This document shows positions 21,978-41,631 of a stretch of 59,042 nt of DNA, in pieces. Location: positions 1 to 59,042 of IMG/VR virus record IMGVR_UViG_3300030110_001528, one strand, 5' to 3'. Every line of letters starts with the position of its first letter. Position 1 is the first letter of the stretch. The notes beneath the pieces are model-generated. The model saw nothing but the letters and a program-made list of their open reading frames with translations, ran no database searches and was not told where the DNA came from. A program made the translations under genes and the position numbers. This stretch comes from a virus.

Positions 21978-22204
21978 TAAAAAACACCTTTAAACGCTGA
22001 TTTTCTTTTTACTTTCACAACGCCACCTTTGTTAAAACGGAATCTTAACTGACCTGTATAAGGATCAATATTGAATTTTACGTTTCTTTTTTTATTATCT
22101 TCTGCATTTTTTAATGTTCTTTGCATGGCATTAAAATATTTGTCAGGCATCTTTAACAAGCCTTCTAAATCTGTTGGATTTGCAAAACCAAGCCTTTTAC
22201 TCAT
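21977..22204 (-). CDS. Small basic protein with GG motif
   Basis: 75 residues, TAATG start after TerL. 'NPTDLEGLLKMPDKYFNAMQ' is helical, followed by 'FNIDPYTGQLRFRFNKGGVV' and 'KVKRKSAFKGVF', so the [MFY]xxGGxV motif is again near the C-terminus in a basic setting. Coupled to the 1020-residue gene by TAGTG. Function unknown, probably virion-associated. Confidence 0.6.
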   Translation of the reverse strand: MSKRLGFANPTDLEGLLKMPDKYFNAMQRTLKNAEDNKKRNVKFNIDPYTGQLRFRFNKGGVVKVKRKSAFKGVF

Positions 22205-23682
22205 TAGTAATATTCCCTTTTTTCATCTCTATAGGAATCTTCATCTTCATAGTCACTTGGAGTTACAATAAACCCTCCTTGGCGAAAACGCAAGATAGCT
22301 TGAGTCATACTATCCGCTAAATCGTCATGTTCTCCATTGGGAAAGGCCGCACATTCTTCAACAACCTCATCGGCAAAATCCTTATCGGGCCTCCAAACCA
22401 TGCCACTTTCAAAAACGGGAGCACACGCATTCATACGTGTAAATTTGTCAGCACCACGGCTTGGAGTAAAGGGGGTTACAGGAATACCCATACGTCTTAG
22501 CTCATGGGTTAATGGTGTTCCTGTCGCCTTTTGTTCTATTAAAATCATATCGGGATCAAATTCTGTATAAAGTCTTTGAGCTACTTCTTTAAGTTCTGGA
22601 AAATCCCAGCGACCTCTTTCAGCATCAAGGAGTATAATCGCTTCAGGTTCTCCGTCTTCAGGTTCAAATATACCCCAAGTCGTAATGGCAGAGTAGTCAG
22701 CTCTTTCAGACTTGCTGTAAGCCGTATCATACGATTGTATAACGTAACTAACATACGGAGGTTCATCTTTTTCCCAAACATTCCACCATTCCCTTTTAAT
22801 TATCGCCCCTTCTTCGGCTGTCGGATTCTGAAGATATTGTGCGTTCCACTTCCCTATTGGGATTGATGACTTTACCGCTTCCAACTCTTTTTTCTCCCAG
22901 TATTGGGGCCACAACACGTTGCCTGTATCTGGAAATATCGCTGGAAATTCTACCACTTCCCATTGGTCAGCTCCTCCCTCTGCTTGTTTCTTTAAAACTT
23001 TTGCAGTCAAATCTCGAATACTCCATCGTGTCATCACAATAATAATAGCCCCACCCGGCTGAAGTCTCTGTCTTGGACCTGACGTATACCATTCATAAAT
23101 ATTATCCAAAGTCGTTGGACTCATAGCATCCTGTTCCGAAACAGGGTCATCAATAATCAGCAAATCAGCACCACGACCCGCCAACGCACCACCAACACCT
23201 ACAGCATAATACTCACCACCCTTATTCGTTGACCATCTCCCAGATGCTTTTGCATCAGATGCTAACGAAACATTAGGAAAAATATCGGCAAACTCTGGAG
23301 AATCAATCAAGTTCTTAACCTTACGACCAAAACCTACCGCCAACTCGGATGTATGTGTCGCCTGTATAATCTTGCTTGTCGGCTTCCTTCCCATCAACCA
23401 TGAAGGAAACAAATAACTCGCAAACTCTGATTTGGTATGTCGAGGAGGCATATTAACAATCAAACGATTGGATTTGCCATCAGCGACATTCTGTAACTTC
23501 TCAGCATATATCTTATGATGCTTACCCTCAATAAAGGCGGGCCATACATGCTTTACAAAATCAATAAACTTAGTCTGGTAAGTCTCTCTGTCATCAAGTT
23601 CCGACAATCGGGTGACAATCTCACCCAACTTTGTCATTTCATCGTCAGTTAAATACTCTGTCGGTATGTTGAAGTCGGTCAT
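22204..23682 (-). CDS. terL: Terminase large subunit
   Basis: 492 residues. ATG 23682 shares ATGA with the previous stop. The ATPase domain has a deviant Walker A (PPRHTKSE, residues 79-86), Walker B 'LLIIDDP' ending near Asp178-Asp179, and a coupling motif 'TRWS' at 218-221. The RNase H-like nuclease has 'SYDTAYSKSERADY' (Asp319), 'ILIEQKATGTPL' and a C-terminal 'HDDLADS'. All parts of a working packaging motor are present. TerS is not adjacent: it lies 6 kb away at 29877-30413, with the amidoligase region in between, which is unusual. Confidence 0.95.
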   Translation of the reverse strand: MTDFNIPTEYLTDDEMTKLGEIVTRLSELDDRETYQTKFIDFVKHVWPAFIEGKHHKIYAEKLQNVADGKSNRLIVNMPPRHTKSEFASYLFPSWLMGRKPTSKIIQATHTSELAVGFGRKVKNLIDSPEFADIFPNVSLASDAKASGRWSTNKGGEYYAVGVGGALAGRGADLLIIDDPVSEQDAMSPTTLDNIYEWYTSGPRQRLQPGGAIIIVMTRWSIRDLTAKVLKKQAEGGADQWEVVEFPAIFPDTGNVLWPQYWEKKELEAVKSSIPIGKWNAQYLQNPTAEEGAIIKREWWNVWEKDEPPYVSYVIQSYDTAYSKSERADYSAITTWGIFEPEDGEPEAIILLDAERGRWDFPELKEVAQRLYTEFDPDMILIEQKATGTPLTHELRRMGIPVTPFTPSRGADKFTRMNACAPVFESGMVWRPDKDFADEVVEECAAFPNGEHDDLADSMTQAILRFRQGGFIVTPSDYEDEDSYRDEKREYY

Positions 23683-26224: not shown

Positions 26225-26608
26225 TTATTTTGACAATATGTTATCTAATTCTTTTATTGTCTGACGACACATTCTAAAAATATGACCGAACTGAATGTCA
26301 TCTTCGCCTTTTTTTAACTCTTTTACTATACCATCACGCAATCTTTCCATGCGTTCACGCTCAAATGACGTTAATTGAGCAAATTCTTCCTCACCAAAAT
26401 GCTTTTCTACCAGATATTTCATCGCATACTCCATTGAAAGTGACACCCTCGTATGTCCACTTTCATAAAATCTGTACATGCGGGGTGAAACTCCTATTTT
26501 CTCTCCCATTTTAGCTTGTGTCAAGCCAAGTTTATTGCGATATTCACGTAAATCATCTGGTTTCCATTTACTGTACGCACTTTTATCTCTTTTAGCTATT
26601 TTGTTCAT
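26225..26608 (-). CDS. XRE/Cro-CI family DNA-binding regulator
   Basis: 127 residues, GAGG before ATG 26608. Residues 19-50 ('LREYRNKLGLTQAKMGEKIG', 'VSPRMYRFYESG') form a classic XRE helix-turn-helix, followed by a helical region rich in charged residues. It sits at the entry to the structural operon (TerL, portal and downstream), so it may control the switch from early to late transcription. The two genes overlap by 17 bases, which suggests coexpression with the small gene upstream. Confidence 0.85.
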   Translation of the reverse strand: MNKIAKRDKSAYSKWKPDDLREYRNKLGLTQAKMGEKIGVSPRMYRFYESGHTRVSLSMEYAMKYLVEKHFGEEEFAQLTSFERERMERLRDGIVKELKKGEDDIQFGHIFRMCRQTIKELDNILSK

Positions 26609-27103: not shown

Positions 27104-27314
27104 GTGAGATTTTTTAAAAAAAATTTTTTGAAAATTTTTCGTGACCGTTTCTCTGAAACTCGCCCCGTGAGGGAACCGAGCGGGGTCCCCCCTTTTGGGG
27201 GGTCTTCCAGGCGAGCGGAGCGAGCCGATTTCCGATCCCAGAACGTAGGGTACCTGCCGATTTAAAGCCCATGAGTTGGATACAAATCCCGATCCCGTGT
27301 GTAACACGGGATAT

Positions 27315-27390: not shown

Positions 27391-28548
27391 TCAAGAAAAT
27401 GTTTGTGCTCTCGTGTTGAAATACTCAAACAACTCATCGCTTACTTCTGACCATATGGAAGGATTACCTGCCCTATTCGCTGAAAGCATTGTTACATCTG
27501 TTGAACCGCTTCTAAAAGTCTTTAGAATTTTATAGCTTGCGAACTCGTCACCGCTACCGTATGATCTGCCGTTAGCTTGTTGCGTGTTGGTAACAATGGC
27601 ACCGTCACCAAAACGTGCTCTCATCTCTGAAATTCTACCTGCGATATTTGAACGTGTTGTACCAGTAGCCATCATTAAATCCTGCACTGTCGAACCTTCA
27701 TCGGTTCTACATAATTGATATATTTGATCTAGTCTTGTGCCTTGTCTGTATGGTTGATCGGGTGTTGTTGTCTCTGCTAGGTCATTTTGATATTCTAGAA
27801 AATGATTATCAGTAGTTTTATACAAAGTATAAATTAATTCTATCCAATTCATTATCTTTTTGCATTCAGTAGAACCGCTATTTTGTCTAAATTCTATAGT
27901 GCCTTTATACCTTCTACTTGTTGGATCGGATGGTTCAAAATTCACAGCATAAAATTTTCCACCAATAATAGAATTAAGTTCACTTAAAGTTGTTGCACGG
28001 TTCCAACGTGAACTGCTCGTCTGTCTGTCAATTGGTTTGCAATAGCTGTTATCAGTTCTACTATTAGGTAAAATATTATTGATTAATAATTGGTTCATAC
28101 CGTAACGTGTAGCTACTGTTTTCATTAAGTAAAAAGGCATTGGATCGGCTTTATTTTCGGAATAAAAACCGCTATTACCTTGAACTATATGATTAATTTG
28201 TTCTTTGCAAAAGTCTTCTGGATGCATTTTAGTATTGTCTAGCCATTCAATGCCAAAATGAACATGACCGCCACATTTAGTGGTAATACCTGCGTTAAGT
28301 TCTAGAAGTGCACCTTCAATTGTTAACAATTGATTATTAAGAAACGGACAAATAGCCATTGGCGGTAAAACAATTTCAAAGACTTGTTGGTCACTGCTTG
28401 TTGCGTCTGTGATAACCTTGCACCAATTTATATTATTACTTCTTAAAGCATTGGTAATTACTTCAATTCCACTTTGTCTTCTAGTAGTTGAACTTAAAAC
28501 TATTTCAATCTCTATTCCTATTATTGGTGTTTTATTAAATGTATACAT
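27391..28548 (-). CDS. Amidoligase (COOH-NH2 ligase, glutamine-synthetase-like fold)
   Basis: 385 residues from ATG 28548 (GGAAAAAA upstream). Family signatures are clear: 'GIEIEIVL' at residues 11-18, 'FEIVLPP' at 57-63, 'CGGHVHFGI' at 92-100 and 'GTIEFRQNSGS' near 220. These match the phage and bacterial amidoligases that use ATP to form amide bonds between carboxylates and amines. After about residue 275 a winged-helix-like segment follows ('IYQLCRTDEGSTVQDLMMAT', 'SNIAGRISEMRARFGDG'), an apparent fusion. It has its own promoter, operator and terminators, and its partner is the GGCT-like gene upstream. Substrate unknown. Confidence 0.85.
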   Translation of the reverse strand: MYTFNKTPIIGIEIEIVLSSTTRRQSGIEVITNALRSNNINWCKVITDATSSDQQVFEIVLPPMAICPFLNNQLLTIEGALLELNAGITTKCGGHVHFGIEWLDNTKMHPEDFCKEQINHIVQGNSGFYSENKADPMPFYLMKTVATRYGMNQLLINNILPNSRTDNSYCKPIDRQTSSSRWNRATTLSELNSIIGGKFYAVNFEPSDPTSRRYKGTIEFRQNSGSTECKKIMNWIELIYTLYKTTDNHFLEYQNDLAETTTPDQPYRQGTRLDQIYQLCRTDEGSTVQDLMMATGTTRSNIAGRISEMRARFGDGAIVTNTQQANGRSYGSGDEFASYKILKTFRSGSTDVTMLSANRAGNPSIWSEVSDELFEYFNTRAQTFS

Positions 28549-28573
28549 GATTTTTTCCTATGTTGTTTTAATA

Positions 28574-28590
28574 TATGGGATTATCCCATA
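28574..28590. promoter_or_regulatory. Operator palindrome TATGGGATTATCCCATA
   Basis: A perfect 17-bp palindrome (8+1+8) lies just downstream of the -10 box of the promoter at 28596-28624 and upstream of the amidoligase start. A sister site with the same layout, TATGGGAATTTCCCATA, lies in the recombination-operon promoter (45266-45282). It is a likely repressor site that covers the start of transcription. Confidence 0.78.
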
Positions 28591-28595
28591 CACTA

Positions 28596-28624
28596 AATAT
28601 ATCATGTAACATATTCCCTATCAA
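28596..28624 (-). promoter_or_regulatory. Leftward promoter of the amidoligase gene
   Basis: Minus strand: -35 TTGATA (28624-28619), 17-base spacer, -10 TATATT (28601-28596). The operator palindrome starts 5 bases further on. The start codon is 48 bases downstream. Confidence 0.78.
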
Positions 28625-28663
28625 GTAAAAAAAACAATTAAATACCAATAAAATCAATAACTT

Positions 28664-28744
28664 AGCGAGCCCTGCGGGCTCGTGTTTTCCAGCCCTGCGG
28701 GCTGGTTTTAGCCCAGCGGGCTGGGCTTAACGAACAATTGTTCG
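28664..28744. repeat. Array of three GC-rich hairpins plus a CGAACAATTGTTCG palindrome
   Basis: Three stems with the shared core AGCCC(T/A)GCGGGCT: CGAGCCC-TGC-GGGCTCG (28666-28682), CCAGCCC-TGC-GGGCTGG (28689-28705) and AGCCCAG-CGGG-CTGGGCT (28710-28727). The palindrome CGAACAATTGTTCG follows at 28731-28744. They stand out in AT-rich DNA between two transcription units. They may be redundant terminators, RNA structures, or sites for a protein. Confidence 0.72.
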
Positions 28745-28755
28745 TATTTACCAGT

Positions 28756-28780
28756 AAAAAAAAGGGTGGCGAAGCCACCC
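28756..28780 (-). terminator. Terminator after the GGCT-like gene
   Basis: A 7-bp stem GGGTGGC/GCCACCC (28764-28770 with 28774-28780, GAA loop) is followed on the minus strand by eight Ts (28763-28756). It lies 50 bases past the GGCT stop at 28830. Confidence 0.88.
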
Positions 28781-28829
28781 TGCGGGGGAAATCCTGCGTC
28801 AGATTTTCCCCGATCAAGTTATTTCCCGA

Positions 28830-29303
28830 TCAAATCTTTACCCGATGAAATGATCTGACCGAATTTTTTCTTGTCACGTTATCAAATTGCTGTGACTTGA
28901 ATTGCGACCAACCAAGTGATTCGTAAAGGTGATTGGTCTTGAGTCCAAAATCCTTGTACCCATCTAAGATACCATTAAAATAATGTGTGCTTGGCGGTAA
29001 CAAATCTTTTTGATTCATTACGTAAGTCATCATACCGTTAACAGTAATCTTGCGATACAAATGCGGGAATCCCTCATAGATATCTAAACTGTTTTCACAT
29101 TCGTCAGTGATCTGCCACACACCAACGGGTAAAAGGTCGTCAGCATTTCTGCTCGGCTCAATGTCAGCAACACCCCTAAACACTAATCTCCAATTAGGAA
29201 TGTAAGCAGAACCTAATTGTTTTGCATTAGGGCATCTCTTAGCCATTTGGGTCAAATTAAGATTTGACCCATAAGCAAAGTATAGTTTATTTTTTTCGTT
29301 CAT
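28830..29303 (-). CDS. Gamma-glutamylcyclotransferase-like (AIG2/GGCT fold) protein
   Basis: 157 residues, ATG 29303. 'LYFAYGSNLNLTQMAKRCPN' carries the YGSN substrate loop (residues 11-14), 'WRLVFRGVADI' follows, and 'LDIYEGFPHLYRK' contains the family's catalytic acid at Glu77. Enzymes of this fold cyclise and release gamma-glutamyl or similar amide-linked groups. Phage copies are known to occur beside amidoligases, as here: the next gene downstream is the amidoligase. The pair probably makes and trims an amide-linked modification. Confidence 0.85.
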   Translation of the reverse strand: MNEKNKLYFAYGSNLNLTQMAKRCPNAKQLGSAYIPNWRLVFRGVADIEPSRNADDLLPVGVWQITDECENSLDIYEGFPHLYRKITVNGMMTYVMNQKDLLPPSTHYFNGILDGYKDFGLKTNHLYESLGWSQFKSQQFDNVTRKNSVRSFHRVKI

Positions 29304-29415
29304 TGTTTTTTCTCTCTTTCTCGCTCTGTAATTTAAAGTTCATATCAAATGCAACTTTGGTTTTAAACTTATTAATCGCTTGTCTATGTCGTCTTGAAAT
29401 TGATTTTACGTACAT
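29287..29415 (-). CDS. 42-residue basic protein upstream of the GGCT gene
   Basis: From ATG 29415, with AAAGGAG at good spacing: 'MYVKSISRRHRQAINKFKTK', 'VAFDMNFKLQSEKERKNNER', KK. It overlaps the GGCT start by 17 bases. It is the first reading frame after the promoter at 29446-29474, and its strong SD suggests it is translated. Possibly a leader peptide or small nucleic-acid binder. Confidence 0.55.
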   Translation of the reverse strand: MYVKSISRRHRQAINKFKTKVAFDMNFKLQSEKERKNNERKK

Positions 29416-29445
29416 TTAAACTTTCTCCTTTTTGTTTATATATAT

Positions 29446-29474
29446 AATATAGGTATTATGTTACATGATGTCAA
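29446..29474 (-). promoter_or_regulatory. Strong leftward promoter for the GGCT gene
   Basis: Minus strand: consensus -35 TTGACA (29474-29469), 17-base spacer containing GTAACATAATACC, -10 TATATT (29451-29446). The first start codon is about 30 bases downstream. It shares its spacer core with the promoters at 27075 and 33540. Confidence 0.83.
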
Positions 29475-29876
29475 GGGAATAAATAATTTAATTTAAATTA
29501 ATTTTACAACAGACTCTCCTGTAAATCGACAGCACGCTGTACTCCTGTTTACGAACAATTGTTCGGGTTCAGGGATTCTTCAGGGAAATCAAAAAATCCC
29601 AGCGACACCACATCGCTGGTAGTTTGGGAGGAAATAATGAGTCGCTGGTTAAGCGATCCATTTAAATTTACTTCGAGAAGCAACTGCCGTCCAGTTAAAA
29701 ATCCGAACAATTGTTCAATCCAGCAGGATGTCGTCCTGCTGGCTACCTGTTGGGAGTACGAACAATTCTTCGGGTTCAGGATCAGGAACAGCGAATCCCG
29801 ATCCCGATTCCCGAACATTTCTGTGTTACGCTGGGAATCTCAGGTTCACGCTGGGCGTTTACCCCCCGTACCAGTG
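29475..29876. other. Non-coding region after terS with repeats and hairpins; candidate pac region
   Basis: No convincing gene. It holds a terminator (29591-29619), a 10-bp hairpin CCAGCAGGAT/GTCCTGCTGG near 29719-29741, and three CGAACAATT palindromes (29552-29565 perfect, 29704-29717 and 29759-29772 imperfect). Two lie in a near-identical 23-base direct repeat ending GGGTTCAGG. Short tandem CCCGAT words lie near 29800. Directly 3' of terS, this is where a packaging start site could lie. That role is inferred from position only. Confidence 0.6.
29591..29619 (-). terminator. Terminator downstream of terS
   Basis: A 7-bp stem CCAGCGA/TCGCTGG (29599-29605 with 29613-29619) is followed on the minus strand by GATTTTTT. 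It lies 258 bases past the terS stop and closes the early operon before the GGCT promoter. Confidence 0.8.
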
Positions 29877-30413
29877 TTATTTCCCAGAATCTCCCAGCTC
29901 TTCGCTATTATCGACTATCTCAACCCGAACATCTTTTGCTGGCGTGACGTTACGCATCCTTCCTTGAGCTAATTTCTTAAATTCTTCCAGTTTCTCAATG
30001 ATTTGATCCCGATTAAGTCCGTTCATATCCTCGTGCATAATGTGTTGCTTATTAACCAGTAGTCCAGTTGCCTTCAATCTCAGTTCTTCCGCACGTATTG
30101 CTTCCCCGATTTTACCATTATCCCAAGCTTCGTTACGCATCTTGAGTAAATCCCGAACAGACTTCTCAACAGTTACCCCGAACCTTGCGTTTGCTTCCAT
30201 ACGCATCTCTTGATATCGCTCCTGTACAACAGGATTACGCAACAACCTTACCGCATCAACAGTTGGATTACTGTATCCCGCTTCTCTTGCCGAAGCCGTT
30301 TGTGTCATATCCCGATACATGAAGTTATCCAAGAACCGTTGTTGTTTAGCAGTAAGTCTTTTCCACCCTGCTTTACTTTGTTCTTTCGTTAATGTTTCAC
30401 CAACCTTGCTCAT
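29877..30413 (-). CDS. terS: Terminase small subunit
   Basis: 178 residues, AGGAG before ATG 30413. 'KRLTAKQQRFLDNFMYRDMT', 'QTASAREAGYSNPTVDAVRL' and 'LRNPVVQERYQEMRMEANA' match the Terminase_2 family: an N-terminal helix-turn-helix that binds DNA, then 'KSVRDLLKMRNEAWDNGKIG' and a helical oligomerisation region, then an acidic tail. It is the last gene of the leftward early operon and is 6 kb from terL. Confidence 0.88.
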   Translation of the reverse strand: MSKVGETLTKEQSKAGWKRLTAKQQRFLDNFMYRDMTQTASAREAGYSNPTVDAVRLLRNPVVQERYQEMRMEANARFGVTVEKSVRDLLKMRNEAWDNGKIGEAIRAEELRLKATGLLVNKQHIMHEDMNGLNRDQIIEKLEEFKKLAQGRMRNVTPAKDVRVEIVDNSEELGDSGK

Positions 30414-30747
30414 ATATTCTCCTGTTTAGTATGGGTGTGAATGTTCCTTCTTCGTAATCCACACCCGAACAATTTATCGTGCTGGACGCTAAAAAAAATA
30501 TAGGGGGAGGTGGTGGGTTACTTACCACCCCCCTATACCCCCTATAGGGGGTAAGTCTCGGTAAGTTGGTAAGTTGTAATAAAATCAATGACTTAGCAAG
30601 CACAATTAACTTACCATAACAGGATGTAACCACCGTAACCACTTCCCGATTAATGTAATAAAAACAAACACTTAACAAGTTACCAACCAATCTACTTACC
30701 ACCGTAACTTCGTAACCCGTAACCTGTTGTTCACGTTTCGTACTCAT
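30397..30747 (-). CDS. Uncertain reading frame between zinc-ribbon gene and terS
   Basis: 116 residues. ATG 30747 lies in an ATGA overlap with AAGGTG upstream, and the stop overlaps the terS start by 17 bases, so the frame is set up like a real gene. The interior is odd: a Val/Thr-rich start ('TGYEVTVVSRLVGNLLSV'), a PPPPP run, and many GTTAC/GGTAAC words in the DNA (30500-30720) that look like iterated non-coding sequence. The end, 'GVDYEEGTFTPILN', matches a tail-fibre C-terminal consensus and may be a recombination remnant. Confidence 0.35.
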   Translation of the reverse strand: MSTKREQQVTGYEVTVVSRLVGNLLSVCFYYINREVVTVVTSCYGKLIVLAKSLILLQLTNLPRLTPYRGYRGVVSNPPPPPIFFLASSTINCSGVDYEEGTFTPILNRRIYEQGW

Positions 30748-30926
30748 TTTTCACCTTGTTCGTAACTACAATCAACACACAAATAGGTGTGGTCATTATA
30801 TAAGATAAACCAATCTTCTTCTTTTGTTATTTTGCATCTTGGACATTCTAAACTACTTGTCAACAACAGTTCTCTTTGTTGTTTTTTCTTATTACTTTTA
30901 ATAGGAAACGCAATAACTTCACCCAT
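30744..30926 (-). CDS. Small zinc-ribbon protein
   Basis: 60 residues, TAATG start after the SleB-type gene. Cys pairs 'CPRC' and 'CVDC', 21 residues apart, form a zinc ribbon; the first half is basic ('FPIKSNKKKQQRELL'). One of five tiny Cys-pair proteins in this 5-kb region. Such proteins often bind nucleic acid or host transcription proteins, but no target can be named. Confidence 0.72.
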   Translation of the reverse strand: MGEVIAFPIKSNKKKQQRELLLTSSLECPRCKITKEEDWFILYNDHTYLCVDCSYEQGEK

Positions 30927-31363
30927 TACTCATACTCCCATCTATAAAAACAATGCGTGTCAATGCAAACGGTATTGGTGAACGCATTAGCCCAATAAGG
31001 TTGAACATAATTAGCATGATAATGGGTTGAACCATCAGTAACGTCAATAGTAATTTGTTCGTTTATGACAACCCATGCGATACTTTCAGCCCAGCCGTAT
31101 GCCTGTTTGTCAGCAATATGTTCGGGTTTGCCATCACAATAGAAGCTAAAAGCACATTTATCCCGAACAATTTTACTGCTATCCCATGAATACCTCAACC
31201 CATCCGTGACAACTTCGCATACTGTGTTCGGGAAACGATAATCGTTTACTCGATTCATAACCACTTGAGCCACCGCTAATTGAGCCACCGTTGATTCCGA
31301 TCTTGCTTCAAAGTAGATAGCATAACTCATGCACGTTAAAGCCGTTGCGGTTTCAAGTAACAT
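30926..31363 (-). CDS. SleB-type cell-wall hydrolase (Hydrolase_2 family)
   Basis: 145 residues. 'YAIYFEARSESTVAQLAVAQ' contains the catalytic Glu19, followed by 'VVMNRVNDYRFPNTVCEVV', 'CAFSFYCDGKPE' and 'DVTDGSTHYHANYVQPYW', the fixed order of the SleB/CwlJ hydrolase family, which cleaves peptidoglycan glycan strands. Residues 1-16 are moderately hydrophobic but give no clear signal peptide. It sits next to terS, far from the holin and from the second hydrolase at 45872. Three sites of the dispersed CCGAAC word fall in this gene, each in a different reading frame. Confidence 0.86.
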   Translation of the reverse strand: MLLETATALTCMSYAIYFEARSESTVAQLAVAQVVMNRVNDYRFPNTVCEVVTDGLRYSWDSSKIVRDKCAFSFYCDGKPEHIADKQAYGWAESIAWVVINEQITIDVTDGSTHYHANYVQPYWANAFTNTVCIDTHCFYRWEYE

Positions 31364-31869
31364 TATAACCCCCTATTCTTCAACATGCGTTCAACTCTAT
31401 TAAGAGGGCGATTGCGAATAAGTTTATTTTCGGGAACCCTGCGTTTTTTATTACCACTTGATGTACGTGAATATTTTTTTTGACCATCATAGTCGGATAT
31501 TTCATCCAAGACATTTCGTGTTAGCACAGCTATTGAACCGTTAAAGGATATTTTACCATACTTATCGTACTCTTCGGCTCTTGGATCATCAACAAACTTA
31601 CCCCTACCCCAATCCTCAGCAAGACGTTTCTTTTTCGGCATATGTTTTGGTAAAGTCCATGATGGTTTATGCCATTGCGATTGTTGACGAGGGGAATTGT
31701 TCGGTTTCTTTTGATAAAGAATGTTTTTTACTTGCTCTACACTAAGACCAAATTTCTTGGCAACATCTTCTGTGGTGTGTATTTTGTCATGCTTGTATCG
31801 TTTCAATAACATTCCTTTTTGATGAAATGCTTTAACTTCTTTTTTAAATTCTTCTGAATACTTCGTCAT
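31363..31869 (-). CDS. Helix-turn-helix-type protein of unknown function
   Basis: 168 residues, ATG 31869 with a weak SD. Residues 1-52 ('YSEEFKKEVKAFHQKGMLLK', 'TTEDVAKKFGLSVEQVKNIL') resemble a transposase-like or sigma-like HTH. The rest is basic and Trp-containing with 'AEDWGRGKFVDDPRAEEYDK'. No catalytic motif. A DNA-binding regulator or adaptor is likely. Confidence 0.62.
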   Translation of the reverse strand: MTKYSEEFKKEVKAFHQKGMLLKRYKHDKIHTTEDVAKKFGLSVEQVKNILYQKKPNNSPRQQSQWHKPSWTLPKHMPKKKRLAEDWGRGKFVDDPRAEEYDKYGKISFNGSIAVLTRNVLDEISDYDGQKKYSRTSSGNKKRRVPENKLIRNRPLNRVERMLKNRGL

Positions 31870-31908
31870 TTATTTATTCTCATTTTAATTGAAATACATG
31901 TGGGTAAT

Positions 31909-32058
31909 CTATAAATTTTGTCGCCATGACTTAGAATGTTCTCGACATTTTACACAAATATTAAACCCTTTATAATAAACAATCGGGGGGGGATAATAAT
32001 ACTGTGATCTATAGTTTTGACGTACCCACTCGCCAATGAAAGGAACGAAAGTGAACAT
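31909..32058 (-). CDS. 49-residue protein with a Cys pair
   Basis: From ATG 32058, with GGGGGGA upstream: 'MFTFVPFIGEWVRQNYRSQY', 'YYPPPIVYYKGFNICVKCRE', 'HSKSWRQNL'. It has one CxxC pair and a later His. Start, SD and the lack of another frame support a gene, but at this length chance is possible. Related in style to the neighbouring zinc-ribbon proteins. Confidence 0.5.
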   Translation of the reverse strand: MFTFVPFIGEWVRQNYRSQYYYPPPIVYYKGFNICVKCREHSKSWRQNL

Positions 32059-32077
32059 TTCCCCCCTATTCCTTTAA

Positions 32078-32260
32078 TTAAATTCCGTTATGTAAGTATT
32101 CTTCTTGTTGAATTTCTAATTCATTGTTGTAACAATCTAAACATATAACGTCATTGGGTGACTTGTGATCTATGTTCGGAAATCTATAATCCGCAGGATC
32201 ACTATCACCAACCCAATCGGGTTTAACATTTTCATCATTACATTCTATGCACCTATACAT
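32078..32260 (-). CDS. Small zinc-ribbon protein
   Basis: 60 residues, GGAG before ATG 32260. Opens 'MYRCIECNDENVKPDWVGDS' and has a second pair 'CLDC' 34 residues later; acidic otherwise. It overlaps the preceding gene by 16 bases. Resembles the DksA/TraR style Cys-pair layout only loosely; no function assigned. Confidence 0.65.
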   Translation of the reverse strand: MYRCIECNDENVKPDWVGDSDPADYRFPNIDHKSPNDVICLDCYNNELEIQQEEYLHNGI

Positions 32261-32457
32261 AAACTTCTCCTCATGTGGTATTCATAATTTTCTATTTGGG
32301 AATCAATCTCATTGATAGTTGACCAATAAACCTCTGAATTACTGCCTAATCTAGGTTTAGATTGTTTTGCTCTGAACGGTTCTTCAACAACAAAAGAGTA
32401 ACCAACTTCATAGTCATCAAAATCTTTGTCAATGAGCGATGTAAATGCTTTAACCAT
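32245..32457 (-). CDS. Small acidic protein of unknown function
   Basis: 70 residues, TAATG start with the upstream metallopeptidase-like gene. 'MVKAFTSLIDKDFDDYEVGY', 'SFVVEEPFRAKQS' and 'NEIDSQIENYEYHMRRSL'. No motif. Coupled at both ends, so probably expressed with its neighbours. Confidence 0.6.
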   Translation of the reverse strand: MVKAFTSLIDKDFDDYEVGYSFVVEEPFRAKQSKPRLGSNSEVYWSTINEIDSQIENYEYHMRRSLCIGA

Positions 32458-32900
32458 TATGCCACCTCTTCAAAATGGCAGGAAACAACTTTAACTGTTC
32501 TGAAGTTTTTAGCATATTCGCAAATCTCCATCCAAATACCCTCAAATTGACCCTCTGTAACACCGTAGGACATTAAAGCACGTTTCATAATTCTACTAGC
32601 CGTATCTGTCCATACAAGAGAGTTAGCAACTGCAAACTTCCATGCACCAATCTCTTTTTCAAGAGTGTCATATTGCCACCCTTGATTACAACCAATAATG
32701 TGACCAATCTCATGCAAAGCCGAAACATAAAACCCCGTATTCTTCGTAGGTCGAATGCAGATAGTTCTTGTTTTTTGGTTTGCATAATACCTTGGAGTAA
32801 CATCTTTTAATGGTTGATAAATTACTTTGATCTTATGGTTTGCACATAACTCTTGTACGTGCAAAGCCATATCAATACGTTTTACTAATGCTCTAGTCAT
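32457..32900 (-). CDS. Zincin-like metallopeptidase (ImmA/IrrE-type layout)
   Basis: 147 residues, with the conserved leader GAAAGTGAGGTGTTAA before ATG 32900. 'VSALHEIGHIIG' supplies the HExxH zinc motif (His63, Glu64, His67). 'TLEKEIGAWKFAVANSLVW' follows at a distance suited to a third acidic ligand. The layout matches the small ImmA/IrrE (DUF955) zincins, which cleave repressors or act on host regulators. No HTH is fused here. A role in host takeover or in removing a repressor is plausible. Confidence 0.75.
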   Translation of the reverse strand: MTRALVKRIDMALHVQELCANHKIKVIYQPLKDVTPRYYANQKTRTICIRPTKNTGFYVSALHEIGHIIGCNQGWQYDTLEKEIGAWKFAVANSLVWTDTASRIMKRALMSYGVTEGQFEGIWMEICEYAKNFRTVKVVSCHFEEVA

Positions 32901-33270
32901 TTAACACCTCACTTTCTTTAGCCAAAATTGTACCGCCATCCTCGGTAACTAATTCCCATTTACCTTCGTAGTCAAAATTTTCAAATAATTTTGCAATTTC
33001 ATCTAATGTTTTTTTACCACTAGATGACATTCTATCGTAATCAAAATGTAAATCATCAATTAGACTAATAATTTCCAATTTTTTAATAAGAAATAAAACC
33101 TTATCTTTAGGAAAACCGTTATCTTCAATACAGTATTCAGTTTCACCTTTTAAAAAACTATTTACATAATCAATTACCTCTTTTGGTTTTTGACCTGCAA
33201 AATCTAATTTATGATTAAATTCAAAATCAAGAATTTTAACTAACTCTTTATAATCTTTATTTTTGTTCAT
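32893..33270 (-). CDS. Small early protein of unknown function
   Basis: 125 residues, starting in TAATG. Helical, acidic: 'YKELVKILDFEFNHKLDFAG', 'DKVLFLIKKLEIISLIDDLH', 'TLDEIAKLFENFDYEGKWEL'. It overlaps the next start by 8 bases. No recognised family; probably an early host-interaction protein. Confidence 0.62.
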   Translation of the reverse strand: MNKNKDYKELVKILDFEFNHKLDFAGQKPKEVIDYVNSFLKGETEYCIEDNGFPKDKVLFLIKKLEIISLIDDLHFDYDRMSSSGKKTLDEIAKLFENFDYEGKWELVTEDGGTILAKESEVLND

Positions 33271-33500
33271 TAGGCAGTCCTCGTAACTAAAAGTTTATTA
33301 TTGTAACTTGTAACAGAAACTTGTTTGTCAACATCAAGATTGCTTACGTTAATTAAATCTTTCTCATATAAGCCATATACTTCTGTATTTAGCACATCAC
33401 CCGATACATCATATTCATCATTATCAAAAATACCATTAGTCTTACCTACATAATGGATGGAAAACTTTCTGTCTGATGGGATATTAATATTTTTGTTCAT
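33270..33500 (-). CDS. Small early protein of unknown function
   Basis: 76 residues, first gene after the promoter at 33540-33568, with the leader GAAAGAGAGGTGCTAA directly before ATG 33500. Beta-rich: 'RKFSIHYVGKTNGIFDNDEY', 'SVTSYNNKLLVTRTA'. As the promoter-proximal gene it should be well expressed. No family recognised. Confidence 0.66.
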   Translation of the reverse strand: MNKNINIPSDRKFSIHYVGKTNGIFDNDEYDVSGDVLNTEVYGLYEKDLINVSNLDVDKQVSVTSYNNKLLVTRTA

Positions 33501-33539
33501 TTAGCACCTCTCTTTCGTTCTTTTGTTAGTGTATGATAG

Positions 33540-33568
33540 TTATATAAGTATTATGTTTCCTAAGTCAA
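33540..33568 (-). promoter_or_regulatory. Leftward early promoter
   Basis: Minus strand: -35 TTGACT (33568-33563), 17-base spacer with GAAACATAATACTT, -10 ATATAA (33545-33540). The leader and start at 33500 follow. The spacer core matches the promoters at 29446 and 27075. It starts a new transcript just after the modification cassette. Confidence 0.75.
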
Positions 33569-33595
33569 GTAAAAAAAACATTTTTTTTATTTTTT

Positions 33596-33754
33596 TTATT
33601 TTTCCTTATTTTCTTTAGGTAAATAAACAAGTACAAAACTATTACAATTTGGACATGATAAATTCGTAACCATCATATACTCTTCATTATCATCTTCTTC
33701 AATGTCGTGATCTCCACCCCAAATTAATTCTTTATTACAATGCCAACAATTCAT
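33596..33754 (-). CDS. 52-residue zinc-ribbon protein coupled to the CmoA-like gene
   Basis: ATG 33754 shares ATGA with the CmoA-like stop, with GTAGGAGGT upstream. 'MNCWHCNKELIWGGDHD', an acidic stretch 'IEEDDNEEYMM', then 'NLSCPNCNSFVLVYLPKENK'. Two CxxC pairs make a zinc ribbon. It is the last gene of the modification cassette and could be a specificity or recruitment subunit. That role is inferred from coupling only. Confidence 0.7.
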   Translation of the reverse strand: MNCWHCNKELIWGGDHDIEEDDNEEYMMVTNLSCPNCNSFVLVYLPKENKEK

Positions 33755-34404
33755 TTTCTACCTCCTACTGCATAACCCATAAAATTATACGATTGCCAAA
33801 TTTTAGAAACATTACCCAATTGTTTTAATTCTTCATTCAATTCTCTTTCAGTTTTACAAAACATCGAAACGGCTAACTGGGTATCTTTATCCAGAATCTC
33901 CTGATCCTGAAAATTTGTTCGCTTTTCCTGAACGTGCATCCTGTGTATAAGTGTCTGGATAATTGTGTTGTCAAGATATACTTTCTCAGCGATTAATAAT
34001 ATTGCACCCCGATTGATTCGTTCTTTTATCAACTGGAGTATACGTTTTCTTTTTCCCGATCCGAGAAACTGGAGCGTGAACATAGATATGATTACCGAAA
34101 CATTGTTCGGCTCTGGTAATATATCCTCGATGTCACCCAGTTTAAAATCAAACCCCGAATGGATTGTTTTTAATTTATTTTTATCAATCCCGATGTATTC
34201 ACAGTTTTCAGCTTTTGGCATCTGGGATAGAAACCGACCCGTTGAACACCCGATGTCAATGACTGCACTCTCTGGTTGAGCATATTCACACCCGATTCCT
34301 GTAAATATTTTAGTGAGCGAAGAATAGTTCGGGATTGACAACTCGATATGTTTGTCAAAATCCTCTATTGCTTTAAAATTAAATATTTTATAATGATGTG
34401 TCAT
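33751..34404 (-). CDS. CmoA-like class I methyltransferase-fold protein (candidate carboxy-SAM synthase)
   Basis: 217 residues; ATG 34404 overlaps the cytosine methyltransferase by 17 bases. 'FDKHIELSIPNYSSLTKIF' aligns with the CmoA start, Tyr27 matching E. coli Tyr39. 'VIDIGCSTGRF' is the SAM loop, 'GIDKN' and 'LGDIED' (Asp74, Asp91) are cofactor contacts, and 'FTLQFL' and the C-terminal 'IWQSYNFMGYAV' match CmoA closely. CmoA makes carboxy-SAM from SAM and prephenate. By hand alignment, E. coli Asn132 becomes Met108 and Arg199 falls at Asp174 next to Lys173, so carboxylate binding is not clearly kept. It could instead be an ordinary methyltransferase. No CmoB-like partner is visible, which argues against tRNA modification. 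Confidence 0.82.
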   Translation of the reverse strand: MTHHYKIFNFKAIEDFDKHIELSIPNYSSLTKIFTGIGCEYAQPESAVIDIGCSTGRFLSQMPKAENCEYIGIDKNKLKTIHSGFDFKLGDIEDILPEPNNVSVIISMFTLQFLGSGKRKRILQLIKERINRGAILLIAEKVYLDNTIIQTLIHRMHVQEKRTNFQDQEILDKDTQLAVSMFCKTERELNEELKQLGNVSKIWQSYNFMGYAVGGRK

Positions 34405-35545
34405 TTTCTTGCACCTGTTTTATTCTAGTTCCGAGCCATTCCATAACATTAATAGACATAGCCCGACCACAGGCTTCATATCTTTTTGATACAGGACATT
34501 CCTCCTTTGATTTGCCACGATAAGGTATTTGCGTGTAATTATCAGGCAAACCCTGAAGCCTTTCACATTCCAATGGCGTTAATCTCCGAACAATAGTGTT
34601 CCGAGCAACGCATGGTTGTCTGTTACCCCCTGTCATTGCGTTAAGCGTGGGAGAAACTTCCTCTTTTCTCACTCTTGGTGCTCCTCCATCAGGCGATCTG
34701 GGTTCAAAAACCACACAGGAAGAATTGTTCGGTTCACGCATCAGGACGGAATGATGATCGTGAGCTGTAATTTTGTACATAGCTCCATTCTGGTTTAATC
34801 CACTACCATTTGACTTTGAATGCCCCGATGCAATAGCAACCAAATCGGTGGCTGACTTGTAATCACGAGCGGCTATTGTTCCTGCGATGTCGTCTTGAGT
34901 GTATTGATCGCTTCGTGTAAGGCGGTGCGTAATTGTTCGGGTATCTTCTTCCCTTTTCTTCCTGCTCGGCGGAGGATTCCATGACAATGCTTTTCCGTCA
35001 AATAAAACCTTCGCTGGATTTCGCCAGTTTCGAGAATGTCCGACAACGAAGATACGCCTTCGCATTTGCGGGATTGCTCTTGGGAATCGTTGTGTTCGTA
35101 TGTATTGAGTGTCAAGAACCCTGTAGGCGAACCCATACCCGCATTCTGCCAACCCTCCGAGGAAGGAAGCAAGGTCTTTTCCTCCGTTAGATGACAAGAC
35201 ACCGGGGACATTTTCCCAAAGTACCCACTTGGGATTAATTCTTTTAATAAGGCGTATAAACTCAAGTGCGAGATTTCCTCTATCCGATTTAACTCCCTCC
35301 CGAAGTCCTGCCACGCTGAAGGTAGCACATGGTGTTCCTCCAACCAAGACATCTGGAGATTTTCCTCCGATGTTTTTCTTTTCGATTTTCGTAAAGTCGC
35401 CATAATTTTTTACCTCTGGGTAATGATGTTTTAAAATAGCAGAACGGAAAGGTTCTATCTCAGACACACCTATACATTCGTATCCAAGAGGTTCCCACGC
35501 CACACTTGCACTCTCTATTCCGCTACATATTGATAAAAATTTCAT
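34388..35545 (-). CDS. C5-cytosine DNA methyltransferase with altered cofactor-pocket residues
   Basis: 385 residues; ATG 35545 shares ATGA with the previous stop. Motif I 'LSICSGIESASVAWEPLG', motif IV 'GGTPCATFSVAG' (nucleophile Cys73), motif VI 'LWENVPGVLSS' (Glu111), motif VIII 'QMRRRIFVVGH', a target-recognition region (about 200-320), motif IX 'RRLTPLECERLQGLPDNY' and motif X 'RYEACGRAMSINVMEWLG'. All catalytic motifs are intact, so it should be active. Two usually fixed residues differ: Gln after the nucleophile is Ala74, and the motif X Asn (Asn304 in M.HhaI) is Arg361 (codon CGG at 34463-34465). Both positions line the pocket for the transferred group. No restriction endonuclease is adjacent. 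Confidence 0.93.
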   Translation of the reverse strand: MKFLSICSGIESASVAWEPLGYECIGVSEIEPFRSAILKHHYPEVKNYGDFTKIEKKNIGGKSPDVLVGGTPCATFSVAGLREGVKSDRGNLALEFIRLIKRINPKWVLWENVPGVLSSNGGKDLASFLGGLAECGYGFAYRVLDTQYIRTQRFPRAIPQMRRRIFVVGHSRNWRNPAKVLFDGKALSWNPPPSRKKREEDTRTITHRLTRSDQYTQDDIAGTIAARDYKSATDLVAIASGHSKSNGSGLNQNGAMYKITAHDHHSVLMREPNNSSCVVFEPRSPDGGAPRVRKEEVSPTLNAMTGGNRQPCVARNTIVRRLTPLECERLQGLPDNYTQIPYRGKSKEECPVSKRYEACGRAMSINVMEWLGTRIKQVQENDTSL

Positions 35546-35718
35546 TGTAATTTTTCTTTTTCTTTAGCTTCTTTTTTGTTTATTTCTTTAAGCTCCCGAT
35601 CACAAGCTCCACAACGAACATGTGTTGGGTCTTCTTTGTAAATTCTTCCTCTGGTCATCATGCCACACCAATCACAGTCAATGAAATTTTCATAATATCT
35701 TAAATAAGTATCACTCAT
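35542..35718 (-). CDS. 58-residue zinc-ribbon protein upstream of the DNA methyltransferase
   Basis: ATG 35718 shares ATGA with the primase-helicase stop, and its own stop shares ATGA with the methyltransferase start. 'YYENFIDCDWCGMMTRGRIY', 'KEDPTHVRCGACDRELKEIN' gives two CxxC pairs, 15 residues between them, then a Lys/Glu helix. It is clearly part of the coupled operon. It may be a DNA-binding accessory to the methyltransferase or a replication factor. Confidence 0.72.
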   Translation of the reverse strand: MSDTYLRYYENFIDCDWCGMMTRGRIYKEDPTHVRCGACDRELKEINKKEAKEKEKLQ

Positions 35719-37877
35719 ACGTTATCCCTCGCAGTTGTTGCCTCATATTCACCCCGACTCATAGTTCCATCAATAAGACCAAGCCACTTACGACCTCCTG
35801 CCGTGCTGAAACTAAACTTGTCAATTCTTCCTTCTGTAATCAATTCCCGAACAATTCCATCCAAAACTCTCTGGGATAAGTTTTGCAAAGCGTCTGGTGC
35901 ATCTAAATCAGTCAAGCGGTTACTCAAAGAATCAGCACCACCCTGTTGGCACAAAGCACGACCTTCATTTTCACAACGTCTAATCCATTCATGCAATGCC
36001 GTTTTTCTTAAATCCCGATTCGTTCCACTATTTAATTGAACAACATCATCAGTTCTATCCATCAAAAGACCTGTATCTAAATCCCGAACAAATTTTCTTA
36101 TTTGTCTTTTTGCTGGACCGTTTGACTTAACAACAGCACCATCGAAACATCTGTTCCTCTGGTATTCTATATCTAATTCTTTGCACTGGCGTTTCGCTGT
36201 ATTCTCATCCAGTTGCCACAAGGCAAAAGCACAACGAACACCATCAACAATGGCTGATGTACCCCGAATAAGATTACGAGCTTGTTCTGGTGTTGATATA
36301 ACTGTATCATCTTTAACTTTTGTCATGTGGTGGCACATCATAACTGACGCACCTGTTTCCGAACAAATCTTCGACATTAACCCAGTAAGTGCGGCTCCTG
36401 TTGCTGGATCAGAATTTACGTCTGCGTGAACAAACGAAGCCAACGGATCAAATATAATTAACTTCAGGTTGTTAATCTGTAATATTTGTTCGTATATACG
36501 CTCAAACTCTGCTGACGTTGTAAGTTCCCCATGAATACTTTGAAGAACAGGGAATACACCACCAACATTCGGCAATGATACAACCCGAAGTTCATTTTCA
36601 TACTCTAATCTTTCATTTCTTGGGTCTAAACGCTCTATTCTTCTGTGCATTTCGTCCTCATCATCTTCTGCTGTAAAGATAACGACATTACCAAACTCGG
36701 TAACATTACCCCCGAATGAATTACGCATTGGGTATCCACCAGTAACCTTCATAGCTAAATCAAGTGTAAGCATCCCCTTACCAGCATCTCCTGCGGCTGA
36801 TAATATAATTGGCACACCTAAAGGAAATGTACCGTCTACTATGAATTTTTGTTCGGGTGCTGGGCCAACGAATCTCGATATAAGTAAGCTGTCATCCAGC
36901 AAATTTATGTTTTGCTTGGTAAAATTGTTCGTAGTATTAAGAAAATCACTAATATCAAACCCTTCAGTTATGGCATCTGCCACATCCCATCTTTCAGGCT
37001 TGCCTCTGGGAAGAGTAAGCATTTTAACGGACTTCACGTTAGCATTCAGGGCTAATTCCTGAACAAGTTCAGCCAGTTTCTTACCTGCATTATCATTATC
37101 AGCCCATAATATAAGCTCTTTGCCTTGCAATGGAGAAAAATCGTACTGCGAAGCTGACTTTTTAGTAAGCATACCCGCACCACCCATCGTGCAAGTCGCT
37201 GTATAGCCCATGTTGTTAAGTGCATCAGCACATTTTTCACCTTCAACCCAGATAACTGTATCTGACGCTAAAATGTTCGGGATATTATACAATGGTCTGA
37301 CATCTGGCATCCGAGGATATGGGTGTTCGCCAGTAAATTGCCTAAATTCTTTCTTGGGTTTGCCATGCGTGTCCAGTACAGGATTACCTGATCCATCCCG
37401 AACAAGATACTTCCGAACCGAACAAATTGCCTGACCATCGGAGTTTTTATATAAATACTCAGAATCGTAGGGCGTTTGCCTGTTAATACTAACTTTTACT
37501 GGATTTTCTGCTGGTTGTTCCCGAACAAAGTTTTGAGGTTCACCTATGTATTCCGAAAACATCTCTTTAATTTCAGGAAGTCGCAAACCTCTACCCTCCA
37601 TTAATATCTTTACGATACCTCCGATACCGACACCTCCATTAAAATCCTGACCCTTCATAAAGTATGGACTTCTTGGGTTGATGTCGATCTTCAGGGATTT
37701 ACCCGATTCGCCTGAAGTCGAACCGATTGTAAACAAATCACCTGTTACTCTCCCTTGAGGAAAAGTATTACGAAGAACATCTATTTGAACCTGTCTTGGC
37801 ACTTTATTACTAATATTTTCAACTAGCTCACTTGCCGACATACTAGATTTAGTATTGTCAAATGGTAAAACACGCAT
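35715..37877 (-). CDS. TOPRIM primase fused to RepA-type replicative helicase
   Basis: 720 residues, GGAG before ATG 37877. The TOPRIM part has 'VIWVEGEKCADAL' (Glu212) and 'LILWADNDNAGKK' (Asp260, Asp262). The helicase part is RecA-like: Walker A AAGDAGKG at 361-368, 'VVIFTAEDDEDEMHRR', Walker B 'LKLIIFDPLASF' (Asp477), 'MMCHHMTK' sensor and 'IRGTSAIVDGVR'. The first 110 residues may hold a degenerate zinc or DNA-binding domain. It would unwind and prime phage DNA. As no DNA polymerase gene is visible, it probably recruits the host polymerase. Confidence 0.87.
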   Translation of the reverse strand: MRVLPFDNTKSSMSASELVENISNKVPRQVQIDVLRNTFPQGRVTGDLFTIGSTSGESGKSLKIDINPRSPYFMKGQDFNGGVGIGGIVKILMEGRGLRLPEIKEMFSEYIGEPQNFVREQPAENPVKVSINRQTPYDSEYLYKNSDGQAICSVRKYLVRDGSGNPVLDTHGKPKKEFRQFTGEHPYPRMPDVRPLYNIPNILASDTVIWVEGEKCADALNNMGYTATCTMGGAGMLTKKSASQYDFSPLQGKELILWADNDNAGKKLAELVQELALNANVKSVKMLTLPRGKPERWDVADAITEGFDISDFLNTTNNFTKQNINLLDDSLLISRFVGPAPEQKFIVDGTFPLGVPIILSAAGDAGKGMLTLDLAMKVTGGYPMRNSFGGNVTEFGNVVIFTAEDDEDEMHRRIERLDPRNERLEYENELRVVSLPNVGGVFPVLQSIHGELTTSAEFERIYEQILQINNLKLIIFDPLASFVHADVNSDPATGAALTGLMSKICSETGASVMMCHHMTKVKDDTVISTPEQARNLIRGTSAIVDGVRCAFALWQLDENTAKRQCKELDIEYQRNRCFDGAVVKSNGPAKRQIRKFVRDLDTGLLMDRTDDVVQLNSGTNRDLRKTALHEWIRRCENEGRALCQQGGADSLSNRLTDLDAPDALQNLSQRVLDGIVRELITEGRIDKFSFSTAGGRKWLGLIDGTMSRGEYEATTARDNV

Positions 37878-37912
37878 TATATTGTACTCCTAACCCCTCT
37901 TAACCCGAACAA

Positions 37913-38713
37913 TTAAATTTGTTCGGGTTTCACCCAGCAACTACTTTTAAATTCACACCTCTTACACTGATAATAATCAGAGTTCATAGCAACTCTAGGT
38001 AAAATCTCATTATGTTTAACTGCTGTTAAAATTTCAGCAGCTTTATCACTTGTTTTTTGAGCCAGTATTTTATCAAAAGCAACCAACTCATAATATATCT
38101 CAGAATTATTTTTATTAACTACCGTAAACAATGCAGGATTATCTGTCAAATTCATGTACGCTTGATACAATGCAATCTGTGAAGCATACGTTTGATTTGT
38201 CTCAGCTACACCCTTGCGAACAAATTCATTAAAACTTTTATCATTTGCTGATTTGCACTCCCAAAGCATAGGATATTTTATACCATCAGGACCCCCGCAT
38301 ACTACACCATCTATATGACCTTTTACCTGATCTTCTGCTATAGAAAACCCAAATTGTTCGCCATTTTTATCAGTGCTTCTTAAATCAAACCCTGCTTTTA
38401 TCAACCAACCATGAGCCATATCTTCAATTGTATGACCGAACTGGAATATTCTTAACAACTTAGCACTAAACTCGCTCTCTTTATCTGGCTTCTGACCCAT
38501 GTACCTGTACTGTATTTTACGAGAACATGAATCACCTAGAGAAGAAGCTCCAAGATATGTTCGTCTTTTCTGACTTTTGTTCGCCTCCTGAATCGCATCG
38601 TCAACTTTTTCCTTTATCATCTCGCACATTTTCTCCGAATGGGAAGTCTGTGTTTTCTTCTCCGATTGTGTATTTAAGCCAGATTGCTGCCAAATAAGTT
38701 TGTTCAAATTCAT
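37913..38713 (-). CDS. PD-(D/E)XK nuclease with Cas4-like Fe-S cysteine layout
   Basis: 266 residues from ATG 38713 (GGAGAGAG upstream); ATG 38629, with a closer GGAG, is an alternative that would shorten overlap with the previous frame. 'LGASSLGDSCSRKIQYRY' (Cys63), 'QFGHTIEDMAHGWL', 'VKGHIDGVV' (Asp135), 'LWECKSAND' (Glu152, Lys154), and C-terminal Cys250, Cys253 and Cys259 in 'CKRCEFKSSC'. One N-terminal and three C-terminal cysteines are the Cas4/AddB-type iron-sulfur set. It likely resects DNA ends in recombination or degrades host DNA. Confidence 0.85.
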   Translation of the reverse strand: MNLNKLIWQQSGLNTQSEKKTQTSHSEKMCEMIKEKVDDAIQEANKSQKRRTYLGASSLGDSCSRKIQYRYMGQKPDKESEFSAKLLRIFQFGHTIEDMAHGWLIKAGFDLRSTDKNGEQFGFSIAEDQVKGHIDGVVCGGPDGIKYPMLWECKSANDKSFNEFVRKGVAETNQTYASQIALYQAYMNLTDNPALFTVVNKNNSEIYYELVAFDKILAQKTSDKAAEILTAVKHNEILPRVAMNSDYYQCKRCEFKSSCWVKPEQI

Positions 38714-38870
38714 CTTCCACTCTCTCCATTCCTTGCAAAACAAGTATTAAAAATAAAATCTCCTGTTCATTAAGCTCAGATAACTTTTTATTCCAACCAA
38801 ACTTACCGAACAATTTACCTACTTCTTTTAATGTATTGTTTGGTTTTCCATTGATACCATTTTTTCCCAA
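38601..38870 (-). CDS. Small helical protein, weakly supported
   Basis: 89 residues from TTG 38870 with GGAG 8 bases upstream; the next in-frame ATG is far inside. 'LNEQEILFLILVLQGMERVE' and 'DEFEQTYLAAIWLKYTIGEE' look protein-like. It overlaps the upstream gene by 43 bases and the nuclease frame by up to 113, so one of the starts must be wrong or the overlap is real. Function unknown. Confidence 0.42.
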   Translation of the reverse strand: MGKNGINGKPNNTLKEVGKLFGKFGWNKKLSELNEQEILFLILVLQGMERVEDEFEQTYLAAIWLKYTIGEENTDFPFGENVRDDKGKS

Positions 38871-41607: not shown

Positions 41608-41631
41608 ATGACTAACAGCACCTCTCCCCAA
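41598..41631. repeat. 34-bp direct repeat, copy 2
   Basis: Identical to 41039-41072. It overlaps the last codons of the gene at 41612-41962, and on the minus strand supplies an SD-like GGAGAGGTG and ATG at 41609, opening a 34-codon frame that also begins MFRQ. The repeat resembles the early-gene leader, so the array may have grown from a duplicated leader. Confidence 0.85.

Follow-up and report, generated by a model that had tools for sequence, protein, structure and literature searches.

Phage P1 pac has repeated sites near terS, and the alpha protein of phage P4 is a primase-helicase that has a winged helix at its C-terminus and is paired with repeated sites that contain GAACA. The stoperators of mycobacteriophage L5 and the Cluster A phages are tens of copies of one repressor site, scattered along the phage genome in transcribed as well as control regions (PMC9283540). 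Those of L5 are asymmetric 13-mers that follow the direction of transcription and bind a monomer; most are intergenic, and L5 is temperate (PMC9283540). The SOS box of dnaE2 from Mycobacterium tuberculosis is bound by LexA with a KD of about 2 nM (PMC8607333). Here we describe a phage genome with features that recall each of these systems.

The window (the whole stretch of DNA that was analyzed) is a virus record of 59,042 bases. It has a terminal repeat of 79 bases (58964-59042 matches 1-79), which makes a complete circular assembly of about 58,963 bp probable. The minus strand carries nearly all recognisable genes of the record. The main ones are:

22204-23682: TerL
26225-26608: XRE-type HTH_3 protein (HTH_3 match, E = 9e-11)
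27391-28548, minus strand: amidoligase-like gene (PF12224), without CGAACA and without TCGGG in the sense orientation
28830-29303, minus strand: gamma-glutamyl cyclotransferase-like gene (GGCT), between terS and the amidoligase gene
29287-29415, minus strand: basic ORF of 42 amino acids that overlaps the start of GGCT and is kept in close relatives (sequence and alignment)
29877-30413, minus strand: terS, the small terminase (Terminase_2), universal 5' neighbour of the palindromes
34388-35545: DNA methyltransferase
35715-37877, minus strand: primase-helicase, with many conserved half-sites within the gene and a predicted C-terminal winged helix
37913-38743: Cas4-like nuclease
39118-40866: helicase
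43941-44804: Sak4
44804-45226: ParB-like match, below the cut-off
45288-45662: Holliday-junction resolvase

The phage family is apparently virulent, and it is apparently common and marine. In six family records, there was no match to an integrase (PF00589 or PF00239), and lysogeny is disfavoured. The same six records had no ParA-type ATPase (AAA_31) and no resolvase. Our search of replication-module proteins found no DNA polymerase, and an Rfam search gave no match. Thin evidence points to Alphaproteobacteria as the host. Cellular contigs with a related TerL were found in two alphaproteobacterial MAGs and no others, and these contigs may come from phages and have been mis-binned. A protein of Wolbachia phage WO shares 39-45% identity with the primase-helicase, while the terminase, by contrast, is pelagiphage-like. 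A stretch of 115 bp (33641-33755) is 70-81% identical to pelagiphages HTVC027P and 023Pt_psg01, in a region that is otherwise dissimilar.

Between terS and the amidoligase gene, we identified these sites and signals (the sigma70-like promoters were called by consensus match only):

28596-28624, minus strand: sigma70-like promoter TTGATA-17-TATATT before the amidoligase gene (10 of 12 consensus bases)
28731-28744: perfect palindrome CGAACAATTGTTCG, directly after the terminator of GGCT and about 107 bp upstream from the amidoligase promoter's -35 box
28763-28781, minus strand: intrinsic terminator after GGCT, followed by the palindrome at 28731
29446-29474, minus strand: sigma70-like promoter TTGACA-17-TATATT ahead of the small ORF and GGCT, matching the consensus at 11 of 12 bases
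29552-29565: perfect palindrome CGAACAATTGTTCG, about 78 bp upstream from the small-ORF/GGCT promoter's -35 box
29599-29619, minus strand: terminator-like hairpin, followed by the palindrome at 29552
29704-29717: near-perfect palindrome CGAACAATTGTTCA, with one mismatch, a perfect inner 12 bp, and a hairpin alongside
29759-29772: near-perfect palindrome CGAACAATTCTTCG, with one mismatch, within a 24-bp direct repeat shared with the site at 29552

The first-pass annotation had reported four palindromes in 1.1 kb of intergenic DNA, two of them within a near-identical direct repeat. All four coordinates were correct (two exact copies and two with one mismatch each), and we confirmed the repeat: TACGAACAATTGTTCGGGTTCAGG at 29550 and TACGAACAATTCTTCGGGTTCAGG at 29757 differ by one base. 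The location between terS and the amidoligase gene was also right, but GGCT and the 42-aa ORF occupy part of the region, so it is not wholly intergenic. The terS-GGCT gap holds three of the palindromes, and the GGCT-amidoligase gap holds one.

If up to three mismatches are allowed, the 14-bp palindrome has 31 matches in the genome, versus 2.8 expected (the largest count in 100 shuffles was 8). GAACAATTGTTC is the only perfect 12-bp palindrome that is repeated in the window (3 copies), and four of the seven near-perfect sites lie inside 1.04 kb (P ~ 7e-4 for clustering). The palindromes are upstream of the promoters, not over them, and have AT-rich tracts and hairpins on either side. Among relatives, the 50-nt flanks of the palindromes fold more strongly than random positions of the same regions. 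Two other features of this region are worth recording. Both promoters have ATGTTACAT/ATGTAACAT in the spacer, which is possibly a second operator. Also, tandem hairpins CCAGCCCGCAGGGCTGG lie at 28660-28725, between a palindrome and the amidoligase promoter, and their stems vary yet remain paired in relatives (e.g., CTGTCTGAAAGACAG).

Half of the palindrome, the word CCGAACA, is 11-fold enriched in the window (49 copies versus 4.3 expected). The copies and their degenerate partners define a domain:

28549-41500, both orientations: half-sites and degenerate palindromes (50 CGAACA, 37 of them inside genes)

The density of CGAACA is 3.6-4.7 per kb within this domain and 0.55-0.62 per kb elsewhere; in the late genes, CGAACA is near chance and not avoided. 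Two sets of 80 relatives each show the same sharp edges of the domain, one at the helicase and the other shortly ahead of the late operon. The half-sites are about equally common in the two orientations, and they show no regular spacing: the gaps between them are random (CV 1.07, versus 0.75-1.26 for random placement). The palindromes had been proposed as the nucleation site of a system whose half-sites are spread over the genome. The spread over the genome was wrong, as the half-word is restricted to an early/replication module of about 13 kb (28.5-41.5 kb). The idea of a strong centre with half-sites around it finds support in the relatives, in the conservation at synonymous sites, and in the spacing-specific second half that are described below.

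Codon usage in the early module differs from that in the rest of the genome. Still, in the early genes of the window, CGAACA and TGTTCG occur 21 and 16 times, versus 3.8 and 5.2 times after synonymous shuffling. Across 80 distinct primase genes, 41% of site positions are shared at 65-70% nucleotide identity, versus 11% for permuted words. For example, the codons for the primase residues PNI, which are invariant in 80 of 80 sequences, spell CGAACA in 66 of 80 (3.9 expected). Pooling the site columns of the primase gives 537 versus 94.5, which is biased upward because the listed columns were chosen for holding sites. For the second half-site, GTTCG, the palindromic spacing is the only one with enrichment (108 distinct contexts, versus 0-18 at neighbouring offsets), which implies that the dispersed sites are, at least in part, degenerate palindromes with a dimer-like arrangement.

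To compare relatives, we fetched 80 loci with TerL and 80 loci with the primase. In the TerL-anchored loci, the enrichment of CCGAACA is about 10-55 fold between -10 and -4 kb; from -3 kb on, through TerL and the next structural genes, the word is near chance. In the primase-anchored loci, it climbs abruptly at -3 kb, which is the position of the helicase. The palindromes themselves are conserved, contrary to one part (no conservation) of the refuting outcome that had been named for them. All 21 of the relatives that we examined have perfect or near-perfect palindromes between terS and the amidoligase gene (up to ten). In 124 terS-amidoligase regions, the core ACAATTGT occurs 404 times (193 of these are the full CGAACAATTGTTCG), versus 0-4 times for each of eight control palindromes, and just four of the regions (L021-L023 and L058) lack any palindrome with this core. 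Among the matches listed from a scan of IMG/VR for the 16-bp CGAACAATTGTTCGGG, 103 of 119 loci encode relatives of the window's proteins. Overall, the pattern of palindromes and half-sites is a signature of a marine phage family.

Across five aligned close relatives, the palindromes at 28731 and 29552 are invariant, without compensatory changes, so we interpret them as sites in DNA and not as stems in RNA. The counterpart of the palindrome at 29759 is CGAATAATTGTTCG or CGAAGAATTGTTCG in relatives. In two records (G007 and G008), the dispersed sites have shrunk to the neighbourhood of terS, and the primase and helicase genes are at background. Further out, in HTVC023P, HTVC027P, 023Pt_psg01, and DSL-LC04 (whose TerL proteins are 56-62% identical), the half-word is absent from the most enriched words, and a search near TerS for palindromic words of a similar kind gave no comparable cluster.

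Our main reading, to which we assign a probability of roughly 40%, is that the palindromes are operators. The DNA-binding protein that recognises them would be dimeric and probably encoded by the phage, and it would control the early module. The few to ten full sites in the terS-amidoligase control region, which adjoin terminators and lie about 80-110 bp upstream of the sigma70-like promoters, would be the strongest sites of the family. About 50 sites that would be weaker, each with one good half and a degenerate second half, are conserved throughout the early and replication genes. We infer that the binder would occupy the full sites first and the weak sites as its level climbs, and that filled sites may repress or road-block transcription of the early module; the late operon has only background numbers of sites.

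The best candidate for the binder is the amidoligase, because its conserved C-terminus is HTH-like and its gene is directly downstream of the palindromes:

27514-27756, minus strand: C-terminal HTH-like domain of the amidoligase (about amino acids 265-345), candidate binder of the palindromes

PF12224 (Amidoligase_2) is matched by all 19 family amidoligases, and the C-terminus is among the best-conserved parts of the protein. In this part, 13 of 19 members match DUF3489 (best E = 1.2e-5), and there are scattered weak matches to HTH_23, HTH_11, MarR, and LexA. By our own reading of its sequence, DUF3489 is probably a helix-turn-helix, and these weak-to-moderate profile matches suggest the same identity for the amidoligase C-terminus. 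Nearly all regions long enough to include the amidoligase gene have it beside the palindromes. If the amidoligase is the binder, it would regulate its own promoter. We saw no covariation of the amidoligase's recognition helix with variants of the palindrome; for example, L022 has CGAAACTTTGTTCG, and its helix is almost that of the window.

Another word is unevenly distributed in the same part of the genome. TCGGG is strongly enriched on the coding strand at 27.0-41.0 kb (minus strand) and in relatives, and it is nearly absent from the late genes. In the domain of the relatives, there are 1443 coding-strand copies versus 35 expected from outside. With the palindromes masked, the terS-amidoligase gaps hold 495 sense and 28 antisense copies, from loci many of which are related or overlapping. 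The word is nearly or wholly missing in L088, L119, and L151, and L004 and L012 have TCGGA instead. We did not adopt TCGGG as a Chi- or KOPS-like polarity word because its orientation does not flip at a single point: the word is missing from the amidoligase gene but occurs in the gene's 3' flank. As for tagging at the RNA level, the few inverted genes keep the genome orientation (6 to 0), which is a small number. It is conceivable, though doubtful, that the early domain is silenced or packed by the amidoligase-fused HTH protein, which would load on the LexA-box-like palindromes next to terS and on the roughly 50 half-sites fixed in position within early genes, and that TCGGG would add another layer to this switch. 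A noncoding stretch of about 640 bp directly upstream of the helicase (40970-41612, minus strand) is C-poor and G/T-rich and has about nine GGCAGTT repeats, one per 45-80 bp. This stretch is present in L085, L089, and L101/L102 and absent in L088, L104, and others.

The early/late junction has an element of its own:

27246-27255, minus strand: conserved 10-mer AGGTACCCTA, just 3' of the amidoligase gene

The 10-mer is invariant in about 100 loci, in 1-5 copies that are often 20 and about 145 bp apart, and is possibly a late control element or a packaging site.

The junction element bears on the possibility that the palindromes are TerS recognition sites (a pac region), with the dispersed sites permitting imprecise initiation. 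We consider this role, one of those suggested in the first-pass annotation, unlikely; it keeps some probability because every palindrome is 3' of terS. This was so for 169 of 169 perfect palindromes in IMG/VR loci with TerS, among the matches listed, at a median distance of 755 bp. TerS is present wherever its region is covered, the HTH region of TerS is well conserved, and TerS is related to solved TerS structures of a pac type, which we take to be the SF6/SPP1 type. However, a pac region is not known to include about 50 half-sites that are individually conserved in early genes as far as 12 kb away. The half-sites in the primase and helicase genes and the separate 10-mer at the junction do not fit a simple pac site. 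Also, the recognition helix of TerS is the same in contigs with altered palindromes, and TerS-pac binding in published phages is weak and hard to measure (PMC9611059).

About equally unlikely is an origin of replication, in which the palindromes would be iterons bound by the C-terminal winged helix of the primase-helicase, as for P4 alpha, and the dispersed half-sites would help to load or organise replicating DNA. The primase-helicase is universal. Its C-terminal winged helix is predicted with a pLDDT of about 80-89 (the model of the whole primase is poor, with a pLDDT of 60), and Foldseek on the C-terminus gives winged-helix matches with E = 0.05 at best. The AT-rich tracts and hairpins beside the palindromes and the lack of a DNA polymerase among the replication-module proteins searched would also suit an origin. 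But in L183 and L205, the winged-helix sequence is down to 28-31% identity and the palindromes are still perfect. Furthermore, there is no switch of GC skew at the palindromes, and half-sites dispersed across 13 kb are untypical of an origin.

A role as SOS boxes of the GAAC-N4-GTTC type, by which the host's LexA would control the region, is quite unlikely for the palindromes. The variants AGTACAATTGTTCT in L063 and L065 resemble cyanobacterial LexA boxes, and CGAACAATTGTTCG is exactly the core of the dnaE2 SOS box of M. tuberculosis (PMC8607333). Yet the AATT centre is almost fixed and there are dozens of conserved half-sites, which is not how SOS boxes behave. The alphaproteobacterial LexA box is GTTC-N7-GTTC, and it is absent from the window. 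Among 11 family records, none has a LexA domain at the tool's threshold; one amidoligase has a marginal match to LexA_DNA_bind (E = 0.018).

A CI-like repressor role for the XRE-type HTH_3 protein is very unlikely. A 14-bp palindrome fits a CI-like dimer, and Arg43, Tyr48, and Glu49 of this protein are invariant in the aligned sequences. But the start of its gene has no palindrome, and the lack of an integrase match in six family records also counts against a CI-like repressor. As an obligate binder, it is excluded because 13 of 62 contigs that span from the amidoligase to TerL have no profile match and keep the palindromes.

A partition site (centromere) of a plasmid-like phage, which had also been suggested, has almost no probability left: a cluster of palindromes flanked by weaker sites does look like a centromere, but the role is disfavoured because the six family records have no ParA-type ATPase or integrase (nor a resolvase), and the ParB-like match is below the cut-off. 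CG-containing words can mirror the codon bias of an early module, but a compositional or coding artefact without function is hardly credible, as the sites exceed controls made by synonymous shuffling, by permuting the words, and by sliding the half-sites, and perfect palindromes in noncoding DNA exceed theirs too.

If the operator reading is correct, then this is a dispersed-operator array in a phage without a detectable integrase, mostly within coding sequence, with individual sites kept across deeply diverged members of a marine phage family that is apparently common. It would offer a tractable system for the shut-off or organisation of an early module without lysogeny, suggest a possible regulatory role for the unexplained amidoligases of phages, and account for why the sequence of a mycobacterial SOS box is the signature of a family of ocean phages.

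How does the locus compare with the systems we began with? Like the pac regions of SPP1 and P22 (PMC9611059), the window has repeated sites close to terS; unlike those of SPP1, P22, and P1, its sites are palindromic, are outside terS, and are accompanied by kilobases of weaker sites in early genes. Unlike the iterons of P4 alpha, the sites are palindromic and extend over 13 kb, and the winged-helix sequence is not conserved along with the site. The 14 bp are identical to the Mycobacterium dnaE2 SOS box (GAAC-N4-GTTC; PMC8607333, Table 1), but they occur in phages in which no LexA domain was found (11 records), with a near-fixed AATT centre and dozens of conserved half-sites. The family's amidoligases match Amidoligase_2 (PF12224), and in members of this phage family we noted a C-terminal domain that is HTH-like (DUF3489-like). 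As with the stoperators of L5, there are many dispersed copies of one site, although a repressor role is something that we infer here. In contrast to the stoperators, the site here is an unoriented 14-bp palindrome that is limited to the early module and lies for the most part within genes, and no integrase (PF00589 or PF00239) was found, unlike in temperate L5. By this comparison, the arrangement appears to be most like the L5 stoperators, apart from two features of membership in that class: its site is an unoriented palindrome, and no integrase was matched.
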